Positions 29,319 to 48,229 of a stretch of DNA of 64,000 nt are shown here, piece after piece. A program made the translations under genes and the position numbers. Below the pieces are notes generated by a model, which made no database searches, was not told where the DNA came from, and saw nothing but the letters and a program-made list of their open reading frames with translations. Within the stretch, counting starts at the first letter, position 1. Every line of letters starts with the position of its first letter. Source of the DNA: Methanosarcina barkeri str. Wiesmoor (GTDB lineage Archaea; Halobacteriota; Methanosarcinia; Methanosarcinales; Methanosarcinaceae); the NCBI RefSeq assembly GCF_000969985.1, contig NZ_CP009526.1:2542001-2606000 (forward strand), read 5' to 3'.

Positions 29319-30428
29319 TCATGACTTGCCTGTAAATTTCCGATATTTCTTTATATTCACTGCAATTTCCTTGTATTTTTCTTTTTCAAGTCTTTTCAGC
29401 CCAATTTCTGCTTTTTTTGACTGAAATATGAGTTCTTCAGTTAATCTGTGATAACTGGCAAGCCGTTCCTCACGAATAAGCCCGTCTTCAACCGCCTTCA
29501 GTACAGCACAGCCCGGCTCATCGCGGTGAGTGCAGTCTTTAAACTTGCAATTACGGGCTGCGTCAACAATTTCGGAAAAAGCTTTTTCAAGCCCGTCCGC
29601 AGAGTCACCGAGCTGGATTTCTCTGATTCCGGGATTGTCTATAAGAACCGCTCCGTTAGAAAGCAGGAAGAGTTGGCGAACTGTGGTTGTATGCCTGCCT
29701 TTTTCATCGTCTTTCCGGATATCTCCGGTTTTCTGGACGGTTTCGCCAAGAAGAGCGTTGATAAGCGTGGATTTTCCGACGCCTGAGGACCCTATTAATG
29801 CAACTGTTTCCCCAGGGTTGAGGTAAGGGCTAAGTTCGTCAAGCCCGGTTTTTGAAAGGGCGCTTAATGGAATAACCGGCACGTCACCTGTAATGGACTG
29901 GATTTTTTCTACCAGCCGGGTTGGTTTATCTTCAAGGTCGATTTTGTTAAGTAAAATCACAGGGTTTGCCCCGGAAGAATACACAATGGCAAGATACCTC
30001 TCAAGCCTTCGAAGGTTGAGATCCTTACCAACCGACGTCACGATAAAAATGGTATCAAGGTTTACAGCAATTACCTGCTCTCCGCTCCCATCTCCTGCTG
30101 CACCTCTTGAAAGGCAGGTCCTCCTGGGCAGAATATTCACAACCATGCGTGAGCCCAGTTCAGGCTGGTCAAGTAAAACGACAAAATCCCCTACAACCGG
30201 CTGCTTTCCAATTTTTAGAAGTGCACCTGAGATTCCTGCCTGTACGACAGCTCCAGAGACAAGGACCTCGCAGACCGTTTTATGCCTCGATGCAACTCTT
30301 CCGGGAGTGTAGGGGCCTTTGTAGGCAGAAAATGCCAGTTCAAGATCTTCGTTCCATCCTGGGATTTTATTAGGGTCAGAGTGAGCTAGATTATGACCTG
30401 AACTTTTTGCTTCGTTATGATTGTTCAT
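29319..30428 (-). CDS. rsgA: Ribosome small-subunit-dependent GTPase A, circularly permuted
   Basis: The 369-aa protein has an N-terminal OB-fold (about 40-110) and a permuted GTPase domain with G4 NKID (161-164) before the P-loop GSSGVGKST (about 213-221) and G3 DNPGI. A C-terminal zinc domain follows ([14 protein letters not shown]). RsgA helps mature the 30S subunit in bacteria. Its presence in an archaeon suggests old transfer from bacteria, and similar proteins occur in methanogens. A broken second copy lies 0.7 kb upstream. Confidence 0.92.
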
Positions 30429-30919: not shown

Positions 30920-31039
30920 TACGTGATTCAATCAGAGTGGAGATATAAGAGCATTTGATCCGCTTATTCAAATGTTAGATGATTTTATACAAATACATAT
31001 GTAAGAAAGTATTCAGCAGAAGATCTTAAGAGCCTATCT

Positions 31040-31478
31040 TTTCTTGAATTTTTCCTTTTCAAGTCGTTTCAGCCCAATTTCTGCTTTTTTGACTGGAATA
31101 TGAGCTCTTCAGTTAATCTGTGATAGCTGGCAAGCCGTTCTTCTGGAATAAGCCCGTCTTCAACTGCCTCTTCCTGGGCAGAATATTCACAACCATGCGT
31201 GAGCCCAGTTCAGGCTGGTCAAGCAAAACGACAAAATCCCCTACAACCGGCTGCTTCCCAATTTTCAGAAGTGCACCTGAGATTTCCACCTGTACGACAG
31301 CTCCAGAGACAAGGACCTGGCAGACCGTTTTATGCCTTGATGCAACTCTTCCAGGAGTGTAGGGGCCTTTGTAGGCAGAAAAAACCAGTTCAAGATCTTC
31401 GTTCCATCCTGGAATTTTATTATTGTCGTCGTGAACTGAATTGTGACCTGAACTTTCCGTTTCGCTATGGTTGTTCAT
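31040..31478 (-). pseudogene. Second rsgA copy with a large internal deletion
   Basis: From the start at 31478 the sequence matches rsgA residues 1-102 closely (upstream flank included). It then jumps directly to the codons for the C-terminal part ([21 protein letters not shown]), removing about 210 codons with the whole GTPase core. A lost base in the T-run shifts the frame further on. It is an inactive paralogous duplicate. Confidence 0.85.
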
Positions 31479-31713
31479 AAGATGGAAGTATTCGATTAAA
31501 TGGACAAATATTTTTTATTTGTTCTGTAAAAGTTCAATTATGCCTGAAAACTTCATCATTTACCGAATGCAAAAGGCCTGTGAACAAACTTCATTTTTTC
31601 CCTGAAATTTCAGAATTAAAGGGTTGAAGCTACATAACTTCATATTATGTTTAAAAAGATGATTAGGATTTCAATTAAGTTACACAGCCCACTGAGATTG
31701 TAAAAACACAATA
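31479..31713. other. Duplicated rsgA upstream flank
   Basis: The first 60-70 bp (31479-31545) resemble the region upstream of the intact rsgA (30429-30500), so the duplication took the promoter with it. No other feature. Confidence 0.6.
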
Positions 31714-31845
31714 TGAGCCTATCCCAAAAGCCATTTAGTCCTTAATCATCAAGAATTTTCAGGATTGTTTTCATGATCAGAAACTTGATTGATTATTCGA
31801 AATACATGATTTAGAGAAGCAATTTTGAGTTTTGGGATCAGCTCT
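31714..31845. mobile_element. MITE-like element, half-size relative of the 13421-13655 hairpin
   Basis: Ends TGAGCCTATCCCAAAA and TTTTGGGATCAGCTCT form a 16-bp inverted repeat with few mismatches. The interior (31730-31812) is clearly similar to one arm of the 13421-13655 element in reverse orientation. No coding capacity. Confidence 0.7.
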
Positions 31846-32050
31846 ATGAAAATAAAAAGAGAGCACAAGTGCGTTTGGTGACGGTGAGTATTCCGGGAGA
31901 AACAAATCATGTATATTGATAAATTAAAGTGAATATTTGCTTATTTATAGAAATATTTAAGCAAAGTTCTGTTAATTACTTATACTAACTTTTATTGCAA
32001 GTCGACTTTGAATCTAACCAATAAAACGAAATAAGTCTGGAAGGTATTTG

Positions 32051-32455
32051 ATGACAAAGGAAACAGATTCAGATAAATGTGTACTTGGTGGTACAGGTAT
32101 AACTGCGGGTGAAAATGTTATTTTCGAGAATATAAATAGTCCAATTGCAGTAGGAGCAAATATTAACATTTCTTTATCAGATATTGAAGATCTTAAACGA
32201 GACTTACTTGCTTTTAAAGAAGCTATTTCAAAGTCAAATCTTTTACCAGAAGATAAAACAATTGCTGAAGGCGATATTACTGCAGCAATTAAGGAGTCTG
32301 AAAACGAAACTCCAAAGTTAGAAAAAATTACGAAAAGAGTAGTATCTGCTATTGAGACCATACAAGAAACTGGAAAAAAAATGGAAGAATACGGACTTTT
32401 TGATATCGCGTCTAAAATTGCTAAAAGACTAGCGATTAGTGCAATTTTGACCTAA
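32051..32455 (+). CDS. Small companion protein of the TPR-PIN gene, with shared N-terminal tag
   Basis: The 134-aa protein begins with a short Gly-rich tag (GGTGITAGENVIFENI, residues 13-28, then SPIAVGANINIS). Helical sequence follows (DIEDLKRDLLAFKEAISKS, then LEKITKRVVSAIETI). The same tag, with the same spacing, opens the next gene product. Similar G-I-x-A-G-x-x-V tags are, to my knowledge, found on regulatory or conflict-type proteins of methanogens. ATG 32051 is used. The next gene starts 17 bp downstream, so the two are one operon. It may be an adaptor that assembles with the TPR-PIN protein through the tag, which is inference. Confidence 0.7.
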   Translation: MTKETDSDKCVLGGTGITAGENVIFENINSPIAVGANINISLSDIEDLKRDLLAFKEAISKSNLLPEDKTIAEGDITAAIKESENETPKLEKITKRVVSAIETIQETGKKMEEYGLFDIASKIAKRLAISAILT

Positions 32456-32472
32456 ATTTAGGAGAAAATTTT

Positions 32473-35190
32473 ATGGAGAAAGACGATTCCAATGATGGTA
32501 GTATAATTGGAGGAAATGGAATAACAGCTGGAAAAGACGTTTTTCTTCATAATATTAAAGCTCCTGTTAATATAGGAAATACGAATAATACAAATCAGAA
32601 TTATACTACATATATAATTTCTGAAAATATTGAAGAGCACACTAAATCATTAATTGATTTTGCTCAGTTTTGTGAGAATAAAAGAGAATATGAGAAAGCC
32701 CTTGACTATTATGAACAGGCAAGAGTAAAATTAGAAAAGAGTGAATCAAAGATTTTATTAGTAAAAGTAATGATGGGAGAAGCTGTTTGTCATCATAAAA
32801 AAGGGAACTTATCCAGAGCAAAAAACTTGATATTTGAGGCAGAAAGGTTAGACCCTAAAAATCCCACTGTTTTAGCTAATATCGCATCACAGTTAAAATC
32901 TGAAAATCCAGATGAAGCTGAAATTTATGCCAAAAAAGCTCTAGAGTTTGATAAAAATAATTTTTTGGCAAAGTGTGTTATAGGTTTGTTAGAATATGAT
33001 AAAGGAAATATTAAAGATTCTCTGAGAACACTTAAACAGGCATCAACCATTAATCCTAATGTTGGATATCCTTTCAATTGCATGGCTCGAATATATTCCA
33101 GTGAAAAAGATTACGGAAATGCTATAAAATATGGAAAAAAAGCTGTAAAAATTGAATCTGACAATGCCATTTTTCTTATGGAATTAGCCATAGATTACAT
33201 GAATATAGCTTTTCCTGAGAATGAAGTTTGTATTTCTTCTGATTTTTCAAAGATGCTCAAGATGGAATATTTAGAAAAAGCACTAAAATGCCTAGAAAAA
33301 GCAAAAGAAATGAGTGAGTCACAAGGTAACAATTACTTAAATTGTGAAATATACACATATTTAAGCAGAGTACATCTTGCTAAAGGAGAATTTAATAAAT
33401 CAATAGAGTACTGTGAAATGATTATTAATAGTGGTTTAGACACTATCGATATCTACATAATTCTAGGGGAAGCATATGGTGAATGCCAGAATTATGACAA
33501 GGTAATCGAATATTATGAGCTCCTTCTTAAAAGAGAAAATCTAACAGAGAACCATCTCTTTATCGTAAAAGCAAATCTTGCTACTTCATACTTTTATAAA
33601 AATCGGCTTAACGAAGCTGAGAAATTATTCAAAGAATTAATTGATGAAAATCCAGAAAATATAAATTTATGTATACAAATGTCTAATGTCTTGGAGGAAA
33701 ATGGGAAAATAGAAAAAGCGTTTTCCCTTTTAGAGAAAATTGATAAATTTTCCCAAAAACCATGGGATTTTTACTATATGATGGGAAGATTATATCACAA
33801 GAAAGATGATTATGAAAGTTCAGTTAAATATCTTAAGGAAGCAATAAGCAAAAACAGTGAGGCAATTCCACCAAGAATCTATTTAATAAATTTATATCTC
33901 GAATGTGGTATGCATAAATATGCTGTAAAACAAGCTATAGAATTAATACAATTGGCTCCAACAGGTATTAATTTTTATAAACTTGCTTCATTATATTATG
34001 AAATAGGCGACTATAAAGAATCTGCTGTTTTTTCTAGAAAGGCTTTAGAGGCAGATTATGGCAAAGTAGAAACTTATCGTTTGCTATGTAGTTCTCTTTT
34101 AGAAGCAAATAAACTCTCTGAAGCAAAAGATGAATTTGAAAATGCTTTTACGAAATACCCAGATGACCTTGAATTGAAGCTTAATTATTCTGCTACACTA
34201 TCAGCACTAGAATATACTGAAAAAGCCATAGAAATTTTAACTCAAATAATTTCTAATGATCCAAACGTTGTTTTTGCTTATAAAGCACTAGCACGTATTT
34301 ACTATAAAGAAGCCTCTTATGAAATAGCTTTAGAATATTCTAAAAAAGCTGTTTTTATAGAGCCAGAAGATGAGGATGCACACTTTGTTATGGGGTGCTC
34401 CTTATTGAATTTAGGAAAAAACGACGAAGCTGTGGAAGAAATACAAAAAGTAATAGAGATTAATCCAAATTTTGATAGTGCATGGTTAATAGATGCAGAA
34501 AAAGGCATGGAATATCTAGGTAATTTAATTACAATTTCTAATCATATAATTGAGAGATATGAAAATGGAAATATTACAATATCAAAAGTGGGTGAATTAC
34601 TAATAAAAGATACTTTCGATTTATTATGTCACATAAATAATGTAAAAGTAGCAGAGTCTTTGAGTTTATCTGACGAAAAAATAGACCAATTAAGAAATTC
34701 ACCTATTAGTAAAAGAGATGTACTCGTAGACGAAACGATGCTAGGTATATTAGCTAAAACCGGAAGTCTCGATTTATTAAGACTAGCATTTGATCACGTG
34801 TATGTTATAAAAGAACTTGAAGATAAAATTGTTATTGGACCATACTTAAAAGATCATCCTTATCGGGATGTGAAAAATAAACTTCAAATTATTGATGGTG
34901 GATGGATTGAAAGCTTAAATCCAAATGATATGATAGCTTTAGCTACAAAGAAAATCGTTGTTGAAAATAAATTTAGTAAAAACGATATTTCATTTATCGC
35001 TTTAGCCTTGGATAAAGACTTTCTTTGTTTAACAGAAGATTTGCTTCTAAGAATTCAACTAGAAAGTATAAATAAACCAACTTGTGGAATTTTTGGATTT
35101 GTTAATTATGCAGTTAGCAAGAATATAATCAAACAAGATGACGCTGAAAAAATATTTACTAAAGTTAAAAGTGTATGTATTGTGGAGTAA
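32473..35190 (+). CDS. TPR-repeat protein with C-terminal PIN-like nuclease domain
   Basis: This 905-aa protein has the N-terminal tag GGNGITAGKDVFLHNI (residues about 13-28), then about 16-18 TPR units from 55 to 690 (e.g. YEKALDYYEQARVKLEKS, YESSVKYLKEAISKNSEA). A C-terminal domain (about 745-900) has the PIN pattern: DVLVDETMLGILAKTGSLDLL (first Asp), VIKELEDKI (Glu), NDISFIALALDKDFLCLTED (two later Asp), and a closing G-I-F-G-F helix set. PIN domains are metal-dependent ribonucleases. AGGAG precedes the ATG. The architecture suggests a protein- or RNA-sensing scaffold coupled to RNA cleavage. Confidence 0.75.
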   Translation: MEKDDSNDGSIIGGNGITAGKDVFLHNIKAPVNIGNTNNTNQNYTTYIISENIEEHTKSLIDFAQFCENKREYEKALDYYEQARVKLEKSESKILLVKVMMGEAVCHHKKGNLSRAKNLIFEAERLDPKNPTVLANIASQLKSENPDEAEIYAKKALEFDKNNFLAKCVIGLLEYDKGNIKDSLRTLKQASTINPNVGYPFNCMARIYSSEKDYGNAIKYGKKAVKIESDNAIFLMELAIDYMNIAFPENEVCISSDFSKMLKMEYLEKALKCLEKAKEMSESQGNNYLNCEIYTYLSRVHLAKGEFNKSIEYCEMIINSGLDTIDIYIILGEAYGECQNYDKVIEYYELLLKRENLTENHLFIVKANLATSYFYKNRLNEAEKLFKELIDENPENINLCIQMSNVLEENGKIEKAFSLLEKIDKFSQKPWDFYYMMGRLYHKKDDYESSVKYLKEAISKNSEAIPPRIYLINLYLECGMHKYAVKQAIELIQLAPTGINFYKLASLYYEIGDYKESAVFSRKALEADYGKVETYRLLCSSLLEANKLSEAKDEFENAFTKYPDDLELKLNYSATLSALEYTEKAIEILTQIISNDPNVVFAYKALARIYYKEASYEIALEYSKKAVFIEPEDEDAHFVMGCSLLNLGKNDEAVEEIQKVIEINPNFDSAWLIDAEKGMEYLGNLITISNHIIERYENGNITISKVGELLIKDTFDLLCHINNVKVAESLSLSDEKIDQLRNSPISKRDVLVDETMLGILAKTGSLDLLRLAFDHVYVIKELEDKIVIGPYLKDHPYRDVKNKLQIIDGGWIESLNPNDMIALATKKIVVENKFSKNDISFIALALDKDFLCLTEDLLLRIQLESINKPTCGIFGFVNYAVSKNIIKQDDAEKIFTKVKSVCIVE

Positions 35191-35337
35191 TTGCAAGTTT
35201 CTTCTTCAAGTATTATAATGATACTTGGCAGATAGCAGTTTATACAGAATACTTTCTTACCTACATGCACGGGTTATACGGTAAACCTTACGTATTCTGA
35301 AGATACAACTTCAATGAAAAAATAAAATAGTATCCTA

Positions 35338-35520
35338 CTGATTAATATACACTTCATCCAAATATCTCTGTAGCTTATCCACAAGTTGCAGATATGAATA
35401 CTCAACAAATGCATGATTAACCTGAACTGCAAATGGCATCATAAATTTGCCTTCTCTTTCCTGATATTTCCCCCAATCAAATATGGGCTGCGCTTTTTCC
35501 TTATTTTCAAAATACGTGTG
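35338..35520 (-). pseudogene. C-terminal fragment of a chloramphenicol-acetyltransferase-like gene
   Basis: The frame reads KAQPIFDWGKYQEREGK ... PFAVQVNHAFVEYS ... DKLQRYLDEV, nearly identical to the end of the intact gene at 39537. The catalytic HHAFVDG has become NHAFVEY, so the active His is lost. Upstream of 35520 the similarity stops. The region downstream (35270-35340) also resembles the 3' flank of the intact gene. Confidence 0.8.
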
Positions 35521-35621
35521 CAAAAGTGTCTTTGTAACACCAAATATAAAAGTCTTAAAATTAAAACACCTTAATAAGAATTCAATTTTCTTTTTCAACA
35601 TCCAGGGAACCTGCATAATAT

Positions 35622-39536: not shown

Positions 39537-40184
39537 CTACACATCATCCAGATATCTCTGCAGCTTATCCGCAAGTTTGCCAATATGAATACCATCAACA
39601 AATGCATGATGAACCTGGACTGCAAACGGCATCAGTAATTTGCCTTCCCTTTCCTGATATTTTCCCCAATCAAATATGGGCTGTGCTTTTTCCCTGTTTC
39701 CGAAATCCGTGTGCGAAATATGCGTAAACGATATCCAAGGCAAGGCAGAGAATTGATATACATCGTTTTCTACAGGTCCTGTAAAATGTTCTTTTTGATT
39801 TTCTGCCATTACGGTTGCCAGTTGTACAAACTTCTCAATCGTGTCCTGCATGGGAACATATACTACCTTGAATAACTCTGTTTCTTTATCCAGATATGTA
39901 AATGAGGTATCAATGGACTCATATAACACAACTTTACCGTCAAGAAAACGATACCGAAATTCCTCGATTTCATTTGCGCATTTCGTAACAGCAAATATAA
40001 ATGCCATCGTAAATGACCAGTTATTTTCTTTAACGCGCTTTTTAAAATTCGTCACATCAAGTTCAAAACTTACACAATATTCAGGCTGCGCTGCATTCCT
40101 GTATATTTGACAATAATCTTTTCTTTTCCATGTTTCAAGATCTATTGTTTGGTATCTGTTTCCCACATTTACACCTTTGTTCAA
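39537..40184 (-). CDS. Chloramphenicol acetyltransferase-like protein (CatA family)
   Basis: The 215-aa protein follows the CatA fold: N-terminal RKDYCQIYRNAAQPEYCVSF, central VVYVPMQDTIEKFVQLAT, LPWISFTHISHTDFG, and the catalytic HHAFVDGIH with its active His near residue 187. It is a cytoplasmic trimer in the known family and transfers acetyl from acetyl-CoA to a hydroxyl. True antibiotic activity is not implied. The given start is TTG 40184; GTG 40166 is better placed after AAAGGTG and gives 209 aa. A broken copy lies at 35338-35520. Confidence 0.88.
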   Translation of the reverse strand: MNKGVNVGNRYQTIDLETWKRKDYCQIYRNAAQPEYCVSFELDVTNFKKRVKENNWSFTMAFIFAVTKCANEIEEFRYRFLDGKVVLYESIDTSFTYLDKETELFKVVYVPMQDTIEKFVQLATVMAENQKEHFTGPVENDVYQFSALPWISFTHISHTDFGNREKAQPIFDWGKYQEREGKLLMPFAVQVHHAFVDGIHIGKLADKLQRYLDDV

Positions 40185-41273: not shown

Positions 41274-44200
41274 ATGAAAAATATTATTATTAAAGGGGCA
41301 CGGGAACACAACCTGAAAAACATCACGGTTGAACTCCCGCGGGACAAATTAATCGTTATTACAGGGGTATCAGGCTCAGGGAAATCTACCCTGGCTTTTG
41401 ACACAGTTTATGCCGAAGGGCAGCGGCGCTATGTTGAGTCACTCTCGGCTTATGCGCGGCAGTTCCTCGGGCTTATGAACAAGCCGGATGTGGACAGCAT
41501 TGAGGGGTTATCTCCGGCAATATCCATTGAACAGAAAACGACCTCGAAAAATCCCAGGAGTACGGTTGGGACAGTTACTGAAATTTATGATTACTTGAGG
41601 CTGCTTTTTGCAAGAGTCGGTACTCCTTACTGTCCGACCCACAACATAAAAATCGAGTCTCAATCTCCTGAAAAGATTGCGGACAGCCTGAGCAGGGAAT
41701 GTGAGGGTATGATTACCATCCTCGCACCTGTAGTCCGCCAGAAGAAAGGGACATACCAGCAGCTCTTCAGAGAACTAAACAGTGAAGGCTTCACCCGGAT
41801 GAGGGTAAACGGCGAGATTCACAGGACTGACGATGAGATTACCCTTGACCGCTACAAGAAACATGATATCGAAGTCGTGGTTGACCGGTTGGACCCTTCA
41901 GAAGACCGCTCAAGGCTTGTTGAGGCCTGTGAAAATGCTCTAAATAAGGCAGATGGGCTCTTAATCGCGGTTGATTCGGAAGGAAAAGACCACCTTTATT
42001 CTTCAAATATGGCCTGCCCTGTTTGCGGCATGGCTTTTGAAGAACTCCAGCCCAGGATGTTTTCTTTCAACAGTCCTTTCGGAGCCTGCGAGGCCTGCAA
42101 TGGGCTCGGGATCAAGATGGAGTTCGATCCTGACCTCATTATTCCGAATAAAAAGCTCTGCCTTGCAGACGGAGCTGTTGCTCTGTACAGGAACTATCTG
42201 GACAGTTACCGGAGCCAGCACCTTGCAGCCGTGGCAAAGCATTTCGGTTTTGACATATTTACTCCTATTGAGGACCTCACAGATGAGCAGTATAATGCTC
42301 TCATGTATGGCTCGGACGAACTTATGCAGTTCAGTATGAGCATGAAGAACGGGGATGCCCACTGGTCTCATAAGGGTACCTGGGAAGGGTTGCTCCCGCA
42401 GTCCGAGAGGCTGTACAGCCAGACAAAATCTGAATACCGCCGAAAAGAACTTGAAAAATTCATGCAGGTTAAGCCCTGTCCAAAATGTGAAGGCAAGCGC
42501 CTGAAGGAAAAAGTGCTTGCAGTAAAGTTCGGCGGGAAATCCATTGTAGATGTATCCAATCTCTCAATTCTGGAGTGTATACAGTTTTTCGAAAACGTGG
42601 AGCTCTCGGAAAAGGAAAAAGAGATCGCAAAACAGGTCTTAAAAGAAATTCGCTCCAGGCTCGGTTTTTTAGAGCATGTAGGGCTCGGCTATCTTACTCT
42701 TTCGCGAGGTGCAGGCACTCTCTCAGGCGGAGAAGCCCAGCGAATCCGATTGGCTACTCAGATTGGCTCAAATCTCATGGGCGTACTCTATGTTCTCGAC
42801 GAACCCTCAATAGGGCTGCACCAGAGAGACAATGAGCGTCTTATCCGTACTCTCAAGACCTTGCGGGACCTTGGAAATACCCTTATTGTCGTGGAACATG
42901 ATGAAGATACTATATGGGCTGCGGACTATGTTCTTGATATTGGGCCAGGTGCAGGCGTTCATGGAGGTTATGTGGTAGCCGAAGGCACCCCTGAAGAAAT
43001 TGAGAAAAATCCGGAATCCCTGACAGGTCAGTACCTCTCAGGAGAAAAACAGATAAAACCGCCTGCCCTTCGCCGTCATAGTGACGCGTTCTTAAGGCTT
43101 AAAGGATGCAGAGCGAACAACCTGAAGGATATAGACGTGAATATTCCTATAGGGGTTCTGACCGTAGTTACAGGGGTCTCAGGTTCCGGGAAGTCAACGC
43201 TAATTTATGATACCCTGTACAAAGCCCTGATGAAAAAGATAAATAAATCAAGTGTAACACCAGGGGACTATGACGAGCTTGTTTTCGATTCCGAGATCGA
43301 CAAGGTAATTGTTATTGACCAGAGCCCCATCGGCAGGACTCCTCGCTCAAATCCTGCCACCTATACCAAGGTCTTTGATGCCATAAGGCAGGCTTTTGCC
43401 GAAACAAAGGAAGCAAAAATCAGGGGTTATAAGAATGGGCGTTTCTCCTTCAACGTAAAAGGAGGGCGCTGTGAAGCCTGCCAGGGAGAAGGACTGATAA
43501 AAATCGAAATGAATTTCCTGCCTGATGTATACATCGAGTGTGAGGAATGCAAGGGTAAACGCTACAACCGTGAAACTCTTGAGGTAAAGTACAGGGGCAA
43601 GTCGATTGCTGAAGTCCTGGATATGACCGTCGAAGAGGCTGCCGAACACTTTGAAAACATTCCTTCAATCAAACGCAAACTCGATACTTTAATAAGAGTT
43701 GGACTGGGCTATATCAAACTCGGCCAGAGCTCAACAACGCTTTCCGGTGGGGAAGCCCAGAGGATCAAGCTGACAAGGGAACTCTCCAAAAAGTGTACCG
43801 GGAAGACGATTTACCTCCTTGATGAACCCACAACCGGGCTTCACTTCCATGACGTCAAAAAACTCATCGCAGTTCTCAACAGGCTTGTAGCAAAAGGAAA
43901 CACAGTGGTTGTAATAGAGCATAACCTGGATGTAATCAAATCAGCAGACTATATCATTGATCTGGGTCCCGAAGGCGGGAACGCAGGTGGAGAAATTATT
44001 GCCGAGGGAACTCCGGAGGAAGTGTCCACTGTTCAGGGAAGTTATACTGCACGCTTCCTTGCTCCTAAACTTTCACAGTCATATCTCGACATGTCGGGAG
44101 AAGAACCTGTTGAAGCTGTTTTTGAAGAAGGGGAAGAGTTTGAGGCCGATTATGAAGATCTTAATGATAATCAGAATGAGGAGGATTCCGAAGACTTTGA

Positions 44201-44300
44201 AGAAGACTCGGAGGAAGACTCCGAAGACTCCGAAGACTCCAGAGGTTTCAAACACAGTAAACATAGAGCCGACAATGCATTTCAGGAACAATTGATTTAA
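41274..44300 (+). CDS. uvrA: Excinuclease ABC subunit A
   Basis: The 1008-aa protein is a complete UvrA: Walker [10 protein letters not shown] near residues 31-39 and again near 640, two ABC signatures LSGGEAQRI, and Walker B motifs [11 protein letters not shown] and [11 protein letters not shown]. Two zinc modules are intact: CPVCG ... CEACNGLG and CEACQGEG ... CEECKGKR. UvrA scans DNA for damage and loads UvrB. After about residue 945, where bacterial UvrA usually ends, there is a strongly acidic tail (repeated Glu/Asp/Ser units). GAGAAGG precedes the ATG. First gene of the uvrA-uvrC-uvrB cluster; bacterial-type repair acquired by methanogens. Confidence 0.97.
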
Positions 44301-44522
44301 AACGTTTTTAACATTTATTTGGTGAATTTAAGCCGGTTTAATATAATTTAAACCCAATGAAAGCATAATTATGCTGATTAAACTAATTAAATTGATTAAA
44401 TTGATTAAATTGATTAAACCAATTAAACCGATTCAACTGATTAAACCGATTCAACTGATTAAACTGATTAAATGATTTAAGCTCCCTTTAAAAACTTAAA
44501 AACTTGAAAAAGAGGTTTAAAA
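44301..44522. repeat. Short-unit tandem repeats between uvrA and uvrC
   Basis: A 10-12-bp unit of the type TTGATTAAA/CTGATTAAA is repeated at least ten times (44378-44475). GAGG lies just before the uvrC start. Confidence 0.8.
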
Positions 44523-46082
44523 ATGATTGACCTGGAGGCTCTTCCTCACCTGCCTGGCTGTTATCTTTTCAAGAATGAAGAAGGGACTGTGATTTACGTG
44601 GGCAAGGCAAAGGACCTCAAAAAGCGGGTAAGCAGCTATTTCCAGAAACGAGAACATGACCCAAAAACCGCGAGCCTTATAGAGGCTGTAAGGGGCTTTG
44701 ATTTTATTGTCACGAATACGGAAGTAGAGGCTTTCCTTCTTGAAAACACCCTTATTAAGAAACACTGGCCAAGGTACAACATTCTTCTAAAAGACTCAAA
44801 GCGGTATGCCTGTATTCACTTAACAGAAGAAAAGTTTCCAAGGATCAGGCTTTCCAGGAAAAAGGCAGACAACGGAAGCTTTTTTGGGCCCTTTGTCTCG
44901 GCAAAGGAAAGAGACTACATTTTTGAGGTTGTAAGAAAGACCTTCCAGCTCCGGACCTGCAAAAAGATGCCGAAACGGGCCTGCCTTAGATATCATATAG
45001 CGGCATGCAGCGGGCCCTGCATAGGTGCAATTTCCGCGGAAGACTATGCCGAGAAAGTGAAAAAAGCGGCTTCAGTCCTGAAAGGCAATATCAGAGAGCT
45101 TATCGAGTCTATGGAAAAAGATATGAGAGAACTGGCATCGAGGCAGCAGTTCGAGCAGGCCATGGCTCTCAGGGACGAGATTGCAGCCCTTGAGTATCTT
45201 CAGGAAAAACAAAATATGGAGAGGCAGAAAAAGCATAATGAGGATATTCTGAACTACATTGTCAGGGATGATACTGTTTATCTCATGCTCTTCAAGGTCT
45301 ACAAAGGTACGCTTGAAGATAAGCAGGACTATGTTTTTGCCTTTGGGGAAAATTTCCTGGAAGAATTTCTTGTACAATATTATTCCGAGAACGAACCTCC
45401 TGAAGAACTGATTCTTCCTGAGCCTCTTGAAGAATCGCTTGTTGATTTCCTTTCTCACGTCAAAGGAACAAAAGTCAAAGTTACGGTTCCGAAACAGGGA
45501 GAGAAAAAGGAACTTCTCGACCTTGCCCTGAAAAATGTTGAGATAGGTTTCTTTGGAGACCGGAAAAAGCTCGAAGCCTTGCAAAGTAAGTTATCTCTTC
45601 CGAAACTTCCGAATGTCATAGAATGTTTTGATATTTCTCATCTCTCAGGTACGTCTACTGTCGGTTCAATGGTTCAGTTCCGGGGTGGCAGACCTGATAA
45701 ACACAATTATCGTCGCTTCAAGATCGAGAGTGTTGAAGGAATCGATGACTTCGCTTCCATTGCAGAGGTTGTACGCAGGCGTTATTCCCGTTTGCTCGAG
45801 GACAAACATGACCTGCCTGATTTGATTATTATAGACGGGGGAAAAGGACAGCTCTCTTCAGCTTTTCAGGAACTCAGAAAGCTCAAAGTCAGAGTTCCTC
45901 TTATCTCAATAGCCAAGCGGGAAGAAGAAATCTATGTGCCCGGAATCAAGTCTCCTCTTCCAATAAAAAAAGAAGAGAAAGCCTCTCTTTTTGTCCAGGA
46001 GATCCGGGACGAAGCCCACAGGTTTGCAATTACCTACAACCGCCTGCTGAGGCAAAAATCTATGATTCCTAAAAATGATTGA
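44523..46082 (+). CDS. uvrC: Excinuclease ABC subunit C, short form
   Basis: The N-terminal GIY-YIG nuclease (PGCYLFKNEEGTVIYVGKAK, residues 10-29) is followed by the Cys-rich CRYHIAACSGPC-like region, a UVR UvrB-binding helix (ASRQQFEQAMALRDEIAALE), and the RNase H-like nuclease with ECFDISHLSGTSTVGSM and LIIIDGGKGQL, closing at RDEAHRFAITYNR. The 519-aa length is about 90 residues short of E. coli UvrC: the C-terminal tandem helix-hairpin-helix domain is missing. It makes the 3' and 5' incisions in the UvrB-DNA complex. Confidence 0.96.
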   Translation: MIDLEALPHLPGCYLFKNEEGTVIYVGKAKDLKKRVSSYFQKREHDPKTASLIEAVRGFDFIVTNTEVEAFLLENTLIKKHWPRYNILLKDSKRYACIHLTEEKFPRIRLSRKKADNGSFFGPFVSAKERDYIFEVVRKTFQLRTCKKMPKRACLRYHIAACSGPCIGAISAEDYAEKVKKAASVLKGNIRELIESMEKDMRELASRQQFEQAMALRDEIAALEYLQEKQNMERQKKHNEDILNYIVRDDTVYLMLFKVYKGTLEDKQDYVFAFGENFLEEFLVQYYSENEPPEELILPEPLEESLVDFLSHVKGTKVKVTVPKQGEKKELLDLALKNVEIGFFGDRKKLEALQSKLSLPKLPNVIECFDISHLSGTSTVGSMVQFRGGRPDKHNYRRFKIESVEGIDDFASIAEVVRRRYSRLLEDKHDLPDLIIIDGGKGQLSSAFQELRKLKVRVPLISIAKREEEIYVPGIKSPLPIKKEEKASLFVQEIRDEAHRFAITYNRLLRQKSMIPKND

Positions 46083-46140
46083 TTCCTAAAAATGATTGAT
46101 TCCTAAAAATGATTGATTCCAAAAATCCTAGATTCCTGAA
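46077..46140 (+). repeat. 17-bp tandem repeat after uvrC (ATTGATTCCTAAAAATG)
   Basis: About 3.5 copies start at the uvrC stop codon. Confidence 0.85.
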
Positions 46141-46216
46141 AATCATTAATTAGTTACTGCTACTATTGTATATATGTCCGTCATTTAAATCTCCAGAATT
46201 TTAAGGTTTTGGTTCT

Positions 46217-48229
46217 ATGAAATCTTCAGATAAGACATCCCAAGCTGTATCTAAAAAAGTCATCGACACAATACGAGATACCCGATATTGGGACAGCCCG
46301 CAGTTCAAGTTGGTTTCCGATTTTGAACCAAAGGGTTCCCAGCCGCAGGCAATCGAAAAACTTGTGGAGGGGCTTGAAAAAGGGGAGCAGTACCAGACCC
46401 TGCTTGGGGTAACAGGGTCAGGGAAGACCTATACTGTTGCAAATGTCATAAACCAGGTCAGGAGACCAACCCTTGTTATTGCTCACAACAAAACCCTTGC
46501 TGCCCAGCTTTATAACGAATTCAAGGAGTTCTTCCCTGAAAACAGGGTGGAGTATTTTGTTTCCTATTATGATTACTATCAGCCCGAGTCCTATCTTCCT
46601 GCCAGGAACCAGTATATTGAGAAGGATGCTCAGATTAACCCGAAAATCGAGCAGATGCGGCTTGCTGCTACTGCTTCCCTGATGTCACGCCAGGATGTTA
46701 TTGTAGTTGCATCCGTATCCTGTATCTACGGGCTTGGCAATCCTGAAAATTTCCAGAAAATGGGGTTTGAATTAAAGGTAGGAGATAAGGTCCAGAGAAA
46801 AGAAATACTGCAAAAGCTCGTTGAAATCCAGTTCGAACGGAACGACCTTGAACTTATGCCAGGGCGCTTCAGGGTAAAAGGAGATACCATTGATATTATT
46901 CCCGGATACTTTGATAATATTATCCGGATTGAGCTTTTTGGAGATGAGGTCGACCGGATTTCCGAGGTGGACAAGCAGACTGGTCAGCGAACGGGAGAGA
47001 TGGACTATTTCTTTGTTTATCCTGCCAGGCACTATGTAATTCCTGAGGAGGAGCAGAAAAGTGCAATTCAGTCCATCCTCGAAGAGCTCGAAGAACATCT
47101 TCCTGAACTCGGGCTGCTCGAATCTCACAGGTTGAAACAGCGCACGATTTATGATATGGAAATGATTCAGGAAACCGGCAGCTGTAAAGGTATTGAAAAC
47201 TATTCTCGGCATTTTGACCACAGACAGCCAGGAGAACAGCCTTTCTGCCTGCTTGACTATTTCCCTGAGGATTTCCTGATGGTAATTGATGAGAGCCACC
47301 AGACCATCCCGCAGCTTCATGGGATGTACAACGGGGACCGCTCAAGGAAGAAGAGTCTTGTCGATTATGGGTTCAGGCTTCCCAGTGCTTACGATAACAG
47401 GCCTCTTAAGTTCGACGAATTCGAGAAGTACATGAGAAACGTGATTTTTGTCTCGGCAACACCTTCCGATTATGAAAGAGAGCACTCAGCTCATATCGTG
47501 GAACAGATTATCCGCCCAACAGGGCTTGTTGACCCTGAAGTGGAAATTCGTCCTCTCGAAGGGCAGGTCAGAGATGTCATGCAGGAGATTCGGAAGATTG
47601 TGGAAAGGGGAGACCGTGCTCTTGTAACCACCCTGACAAAGAAACTTGCGGAAGAACTGACTGAGTATCTTGCAAGGAACGAAATAAAAGCTCGTTACCT
47701 GCACTCGGATATTAAAACAATAGAAAGGACTGAGATTATCCGCGAGCTCCGCCTTGGAAAATTCGATGTCCTTGTAGGGATAAACCTGCTCAGAGAGGGG
47801 CTTGATATTCCGGAAGTGGGCTTCATTGGCATACTGGATGCGGATAAGGAAGGATTCCTGAGGGACTCAAAAAGCCTGATCCAGATCATAGGCCGCGCGG
47901 CCCGGAATGCCAGCTCGAAGGTTGTCCTGTATGCCGATAACATGACGGATTCTATCAAAAAAGCCGTTACTGAGACCGAACGCCGCCGTTCCATGCAAAT
48001 CGCCTACAATAAGGAACACGGCATAGTCCCGACAACTATCAGAAAACCAATTAGAGAAAAAGTTGTGGATATTACCGACACAAAACACATCCCGAAGACC
48101 GATATTCCCAATATGATTATCGAACTGGAAACCGAAATGAGGGAAGCTGCTGACAGGCTGGACTTCGAAAGGGCAATTCAGGTAAGGGAAATGATAAAGA
48201 AGCTGGAAAAAGAGATAAAAGTAGTCTGA
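46217..48229 (+). CDS. uvrB: Excinuclease ABC subunit B
   Basis: The 670-aa protein has the helicase motifs of UvrB: Walker A GVTGSGKTYT (about 60-69), the beta-hairpin region YYDYYQPESYLPARNQYIEKD, DESHQTIPQLHGM, and motif VI IQIIGRAARN. The C-terminal UVR domain (EMREAADRLDFERAIQVREM) binds UvrC. The length equals bacterial UvrB. UvrB verifies damage handed over by UvrA and recruits UvrC. Order uvrA-uvrC-uvrB with 130-220-bp spacers suggests linked but possibly separate promoters. Confidence 0.97.
   Translation: MKSSDKTSQAVSKKVIDTIRDTRYWDSPQFKLVSDFEPKGSQPQAIEKLVEGLEKGEQYQTLLGVTGSGKTYTVANVINQVRRPTLVIAHNKTLAAQLYNEFKEFFPENRVEYFVSYYDYYQPESYLPARNQYIEKDAQINPKIEQMRLAATASLMSRQDVIVVASVSCIYGLGNPENFQKMGFELKVGDKVQRKEILQKLVEIQFERNDLELMPGRFRVKGDTIDIIPGYFDNIIRIELFGDEVDRISEVDKQTGQRTGEMDYFFVYPARHYVIPEEEQKSAIQSILEELEEHLPELGLLESHRLKQRTIYDMEMIQETGSCKGIENYSRHFDHRQPGEQPFCLLDYFPEDFLMVIDESHQTIPQLHGMYNGDRSRKKSLVDYGFRLPSAYDNRPLKFDEFEKYMRNVIFVSATPSDYEREHSAHIVEQIIRPTGLVDPEVEIRPLEGQVRDVMQEIRKIVERGDRALVTTLTKKLAEELTEYLARNEIKARYLHSDIKTIERTEIIRELRLGKFDVLVGINLLREGLDIPEVGFIGILDADKEGFLRDSKSLIQIIGRAARNASSKVVLYADNMTDSIKKAVTETERRRSMQIAYNKEHGIVPTTIRKPIREKVVDITDTKHIPKTDIPNMIIELETEMREAADRLDFERAIQVREMIKKLEKEIKVV

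Follow-up and report, generated by a model that had tools for sequence, protein, structure and literature searches.

A two-gene locus of Methanosarcina barkeri with a common tag: a candidate signalling pair with a TPR-PIN protein in the place of an NLR

Background

In fungi and bacteria, NLR amyloid signalosomes rely on motif templating to carry a signal from receptor to effector (PMC7889193). Two publications describe adjacent NLR and effector genes with common RHIM-like amyloid motifs, archaeal cases included (PMC7889193, PMC8086366), and amyloid formation in vitro has been shown for a BASS3-like archaeal motif from the NLR side (PMC8086366). Whether such motifs also act in NLR-independent pathways and in Archaea is a question raised in reviews of amyloid signalling (PMC7889193).

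Here we describe a locus of two genes, ORF1 and ORF2, in a 64,000-nucleotide stretch of the genome of Methanosarcina barkeri str. Wiesmoor (the window), which offers a concrete two-gene case for both questions. We favour, with moderate confidence, the reading that the pair is a RHIM/BASS-type signalling unit based on a homotypic motif, with a TPR-PIN protein in the slot that normally belongs to an NLR. What would be new in such a unit is the replacement of the NLR of an amyloid-motif pair by a TPR-PIN nuclease without an NTPase. Comparisons were made across 31 genomes of the genus (the source genome being G000), 112 of the family and 393 of the phylum.

Results

Layout of the locus

An earlier note on this DNA had described two open reading frames that open with a common N-terminal tag and continue into different domains, namely a short helical protein and a large TPR array with a PIN-like end. 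This description holds in all its parts. Both frames are present, their tags are alike well beyond chance, and their sequences are unrelated beyond the tag; the helical domain, the TPR array and the PIN domain were each recovered (Table 1), the last on the basis of sequence and not of a structure model. The two genes are almost certainly co-transcribed, since they lie on the same strand with a gap of 17 bp and their starts are preceded by Shine-Dalgarno-like sequences (GGAAGG and AGGAG). Promoter and terminator scans returned nothing above chance.

Table 1. Positions of the two genes, their domains and the surrounding insert in the window
Feature	Position	Strand	Support
Inserted cargo segment, exactly two genes	31551..35282		Break points in blastn with G003; comparable with G030 and others
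ORF1, 134 aa, small helical protein with tag	32051..32455	+	ATG 32051, stop 32455
ORF1 tag, CVLGGTGITAGENVIFENINSPIAVGANINIS, RHIM-like core IAVGAN	32078..32173	+	Tag profile E 8.0e-14; predicted disordered
ORF1 four-helix domain, residues 42-127	32174..32431	+	AlphaFold2 pLDDT 82-95 over residues 41-130
ORF2, 905 aa, with tag, TPR array, linker and PIN domain	32473..35190	+	ATG 32473, stop 35190
ORF2 tag, SIIGGNGITAGKDVFLHNIKAPVNIGNTNNTNQ, RHIM-like core VNIGNTN	32500..32598	+	Tag profile E 1.3e-12; z=9.4 vs ORF1 tag
TPR repeat array, about residues 63-670	32659..34479	+	Pfam TPR_2 1.2e-42, TPR_19 2.5e-34, others
Linker, about residues 690-747, antitoxin HTH-like	34540..34713	+	Weak: 10.5 bits, hhalign E 4.3e-4
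PIN domain, predicted RNase, acids D753, E781, D838, D856	34714..35187	+	Sequence profile E 1.2e-19

The common tag

The tag occupies about 32 residues near the N-terminus of both proteins. The two copies align with a score of 76, against a mean of 20.6 (sd 5.9, maximum 51) for 20,000 shuffles. A tag profile made from loci outside the window placed ORF1 (E 1.5e-8) and ORF2 (E 0.013) as the top two of the 1,037 frames of the window, and a genome-wide tblastn search with ORF2 as the query recovered the ORF1 tag at E 0.0019. In an AlphaFold2 model computed with five relatives the ORF1 tag is disordered (residues 1-39, pLDDT <40). A RHIM-like core can be recognized in both tags of the window, but statistical homology to BASS3 is not significant: the published BASS3 peptide scored at chance level against the tag profile (111 of 2000 shuffles equally high) and an archaeal BASS3-like peptide scored weakly (15 of 2000), and the RHIM chains in the PDB gave no match to the tag.

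Strong matches to a tag-only profile were confined to neighbouring genes. All 14 of those in the 393 genomes of the phylum fall in seven adjacent pairs (7 genomes), as do all 10 of those in the 31 genomes of the genus in five adjacent pairs. As these pairs had served to train the profile, recovering them is no test; the test is the absence of unpaired matches, and no orphan strong match was found in either the phylum or the genus set. One partner in each tagged pair is a small tagged helical protein of the ORF1 type, with homologues in G030, G002 (three loci), the Methanosarcinaceae genomes G125, G158 and G184, two ANME-1 genomes and one Omnitrophota bacterium. The second partner is usually an NB-ARC/TPR NLR (G030, the three loci of G002, G125, G158 and ANME-1 G143/L040); Pfam confirms the NB-ARC domain in G030 and L040, and the other partners were judged NLRs from their sequence. 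At a damaged-looking locus (G225/L043) the partner is a TPR protein. TPR-PIN partners are confined to the window and a single further genus (G184/L047, whose protein shares 50% identity with ORF2 along its full length), or 2 of the 112 genomes of the family.

Tags within a pair are more alike than non-cognate tags (permutation p=0.003, a value that includes the effect of shared ancestry). The small proteins that accompany the TPR-PIN proteins form one clade (support 100/99) despite coming from different genera, which together with the closer likeness of cognate tags indicates that the pair is inherited, or travels, as a unit.

These comparisons bear on what the earlier note had made of the tag. 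Its proposed search of other methanogen proteins finds the tag on small helical proteins, NLRs and TPR-PIN proteins, and solely in adjacent pairs. The thought that the tag might be an ordinary TPR cap, which that note had itself raised against its reading, is ruled out because NB-ARC domains and four-helix domains also follow the tag, which in an Omnitrophota ATPase is on the C-terminal side. Its suggestion of homotypic docking within an adaptor/effector complex is in keeping with the restriction to pairs, the diversity of carriers and the matching of cognate tags, and the two proteins may well dock through their tags. An alternative is that the tag serves targeting or structure, perhaps as the place where a third host protein binds, and is present on both proteins without any mutual docking. 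Such an explanation would suit a short, Gly-rich segment with no significant homology to known amyloid motifs, and docking is deduced from sequence; however, one would look for a site of this kind on unpaired proteins as well, the genus and phylum searches found none there, and the likeness of tags within pairs would be left to be explained. We consider it quite unlikely.

Some relatives depart from the usual layout. An Omnitrophota ATPase (L041:1044-2714), preceded by a TPR gene, ends in a fused tag and helical domain and is a one-protein form of the pair outside Archaea. The ANME-1 NLR partner (L040:5269-8034) has an additional N-terminal helical segment of ~125 residues ahead of the tag, with the look of a HeLo/Bell-type cell-death domain. 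In another ANME-1 genome, G200, a helical protein of 127 aa, whose Gly/Asn-rich N-terminus is a different one, adjoins an NB-ARC/TPR protein that starts in a similar way (L049:2772-5643), and this pair may stand for a second family of tags, close to the BASS3-like peptide from archaea.

The helical domain of ORF1

The four helices modelled for ORF1 by AlphaFold2 with five relatives span residues 42-61, 66-83, 90-105 and 117-127. The PADLOC profile PDC-M14B matches ORF1 at E 2.6e-5 and its homologue L045 at E 3.5e-10, and on this profile evidence the helical domain is a relative of that phage-defence-candidate family's C-terminal domain. A fold search with the ORF1 model gave no match at E <0.001 and no clear PDB counterpart. 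ORF1 is not an evident Bell-type pore former, because it has no helix of transmembrane strength (best 19-residue hydropathy 1.14); its motif is also N-terminal. Weak ORF1 matches in lipoprotein-like proteins of 500 aa (G012, G014, G025) were set aside as coiled-coil noise, as these have no tag and another gene context. Scans of viral contigs found no relatives of ORF1 or of the PIN domain, and no relatives were found on plasmids.

The TPR array, linker and PIN domain of ORF2

Neither Pfam nor motif searches detected an NB-ARC or NACHT NTPase in ORF2, and it has no P-loop motif. We therefore do not class ORF2 as an NLR/STAND protein, because the NTPase is missing. Membership of the TPR-GreA/B-C-PIN system (PMC8195603) is likewise ruled out by the missing GreA/B-C domain, for which Pfam gave no match between the TPR array and the PIN domain at E up to 10 (ORF2 residues 660-905).

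The C-terminus of ORF2 matches standalone proteins of ~160 aa from other archaea (E 1.7e-10), which are DUF3368/PIN proteins, and a profile of such standalone DUF3368-type PINs finds ORF2 in return (Table 1). The top PDB match of a mixed PIN profile is VapC6 (2lcq, E 0.004). The alignment of acidic residues places D753, E781, D838 and D856 at the four PIN positions, all of which are kept in the ortholog G184/L047. A single-sequence AlphaFold2 model of the region, computed without an alignment, has a pLDDT of 36.5 and counts neither way. The sequence comparisons confirm the C-terminus as a PIN domain, a predicted RNase.

In ORF2 and its ortholog the linker before the PIN domain resembles the C-terminal HTH half of UPF0175-type antitoxins (Y.NG.ITISKV.E); none of 3000 shuffles scored as high, and hhalign assigns a probability of 34%. 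A UPF0175-type antitoxin gene lies directly before the related standalone PIN gene at all eight of the examined loci with an intact gene. We take this as a hint that ORF2 originated when an antitoxin-toxin module became fused behind TPR repeats. The same observations suit an expanded toxin-antitoxin unit, in which an antitoxin-like HTH and a PIN toxin sit behind the TPR array and ORF1 restrains the nuclease by inhibitory docking through the tag; ORF1 is encoded upstream of ORF2, often the position of an antitoxin. However, the likeness of the linker is no more than about 10 bits, homologues of ORF1 are mostly paired with NLRs lacking any nuclease that would need neutralising, and homotypic disordered Gly-rich tags would be unusual for toxin neutralisation. 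We regard this arrangement as unlikely.

The genomic site

Homology to G003 ends at position 31550 and resumes at 35283, and the segment between has a GC content of ~0.30 compared with 0.40-0.47 to its left. Other genomes hold different genes at the same site: a nucleotidyltransferase-like gene and a 521-aa gene in G003, a pentapeptide-repeat gene and another gene in G030, an integrase-like gene in G026 and almost nothing in G014. The site is an exchange site for cargo genes. G004 carries a different two-gene unit here (L114:1302-3583; 297-298 aa and 459 aa, neither with a Pfam family), and a paralogue of its second protein (L050:4403-5767) ends in a PDC-M14B/ORF1-like helical domain. The stretches flanking the insert (31039-31597 and 35262-35525) duplicate parts of an RsgA-type GTPase gene (29319-30428) and of an acetyltransferase-like gene (39537-40184), and the same RsgA-type and acetyltransferase-like fragments are present at the site in G003 and G030.

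The earlier note had pointed to the neighbourhood as a place to look for a defence island. Instead the pair lies in a variable-cargo site with ordinary genes further out in the window (for example uvr-type genes at 41274-48229), and there is no extended defence island in the 64 kb. Variable cargo of this kind fits a defence role; what it proves is mobility, not defence.

The RNA-surveillance function that had also been suggested found no support. The presence of PIN and TPR domains in eukaryotic RNA decay factors would speak for a housekeeping pair for RNA surveillance or RNA processing. Against such a pair, the TPR-PIN protein is a rarity within its family of genomes and sits at a variable-cargo site, the partner family is otherwise tied to NLRs, and a search for genus-wide conservation of the pair at a fixed locus did not find it. 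We consider a housekeeping role highly improbable.

Discussion

The reading of ORF1 and ORF2 as a signalling unit fits several features of the locus and its relatives: the restriction of the tag to pairs, the occurrence of the same small protein with NLRs, the Omnitrophota fusion, the recurrence of the helical domain in a phage-defence-candidate family, and the low-GC variable site. On the other side stand the chance-level match to BASS3, the N-terminal position of both motifs, the absence of a helix of transmembrane strength, and the count of only two TPR-PIN pairs. A RHIM/BASS amyloid-signalling arrangement does not appear in the earlier note.

Within the signalling unit, tag-driven co-assembly would couple a TPR sensor and PIN nuclease to the helical protein, probably as a defence against parasites. 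The TPR array would sense an invader- or damage-derived partner and hold ORF2 quiet until then. The disordered tags of ORF1 and ORF2 would then nucleate a common beta (amyloid-like) assembly, which would gather PIN domains for RNA cleavage and would recruit or activate the helical ORF1 protein as an adaptor or second effector; the infected cell would as a result stop growing or die. A more far-reaching and tentative proposal, to which we give somewhat less than even chances, is that the locus encodes an archaeal amyloid-type signalosome without an NLR, in which RHIM-like tags assemble a TPR-sensor RNase and a helical adaptor/effector, and polymerisation rather than NTP hydrolysis switches on the RNase in antiviral defence. 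The locus also suggests a way in which a sensor scaffold and a polymerising tag could control a PIN toxin.

Comparison with known systems

Several described systems share parts of this design. The C-terminal helical domain of PDC-M14B matches ORF1 and its homologues, but PDC-M14B has its own N-terminal domain of ~150 residues, and PDC families are unvalidated predictions. UPF0175-DUF3368 (VapBC-like) modules likewise have a DUF3368-kind PIN preceded by an antitoxin-like HTH segment, whereas ORF2 is a single chain with TPR repeats and a tag ahead of these parts, and has no free antitoxin gene alongside. The TPR-GreA/B-C-PIN conflict system (PMC8195603, Pfam PF20698) combines a long TPR array, a divergent C-terminal PIN domain and an exchangeable N-terminal module, and relatives of the ORF2 PIN domain match PF20698; ORF2 itself has no such match, and its N-terminal module is a tag in common with the neighbouring gene. 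By analogy, ORF2 may work similarly to this system.

The BASS/RHIM-like pairs (BASS3 and its archaeal relatives, the fungal PP motif and the animal RHIM) differ in that ORF2 is a TPR-PIN protein without an NTPase; NLRs are the partners in the sister pairs and not in the window. The effector of BASS pairs also carries its motif at the C-terminus, while that of ORF1 is N-terminal and ORF1 has no clear Bell transmembrane helix. As in these pairs, the products of adjacent genes carry one short motif, Gly/Asn-rich and with an [IV]x[IV]G..N-type core, on a receptor-like and a small helical protein, and the NLR side bears it N-terminally, as does ORF2. With the same small protein wired to NLRs at the sister loci, the NLR and non-NLR versions of the arrangement can be compared directly.
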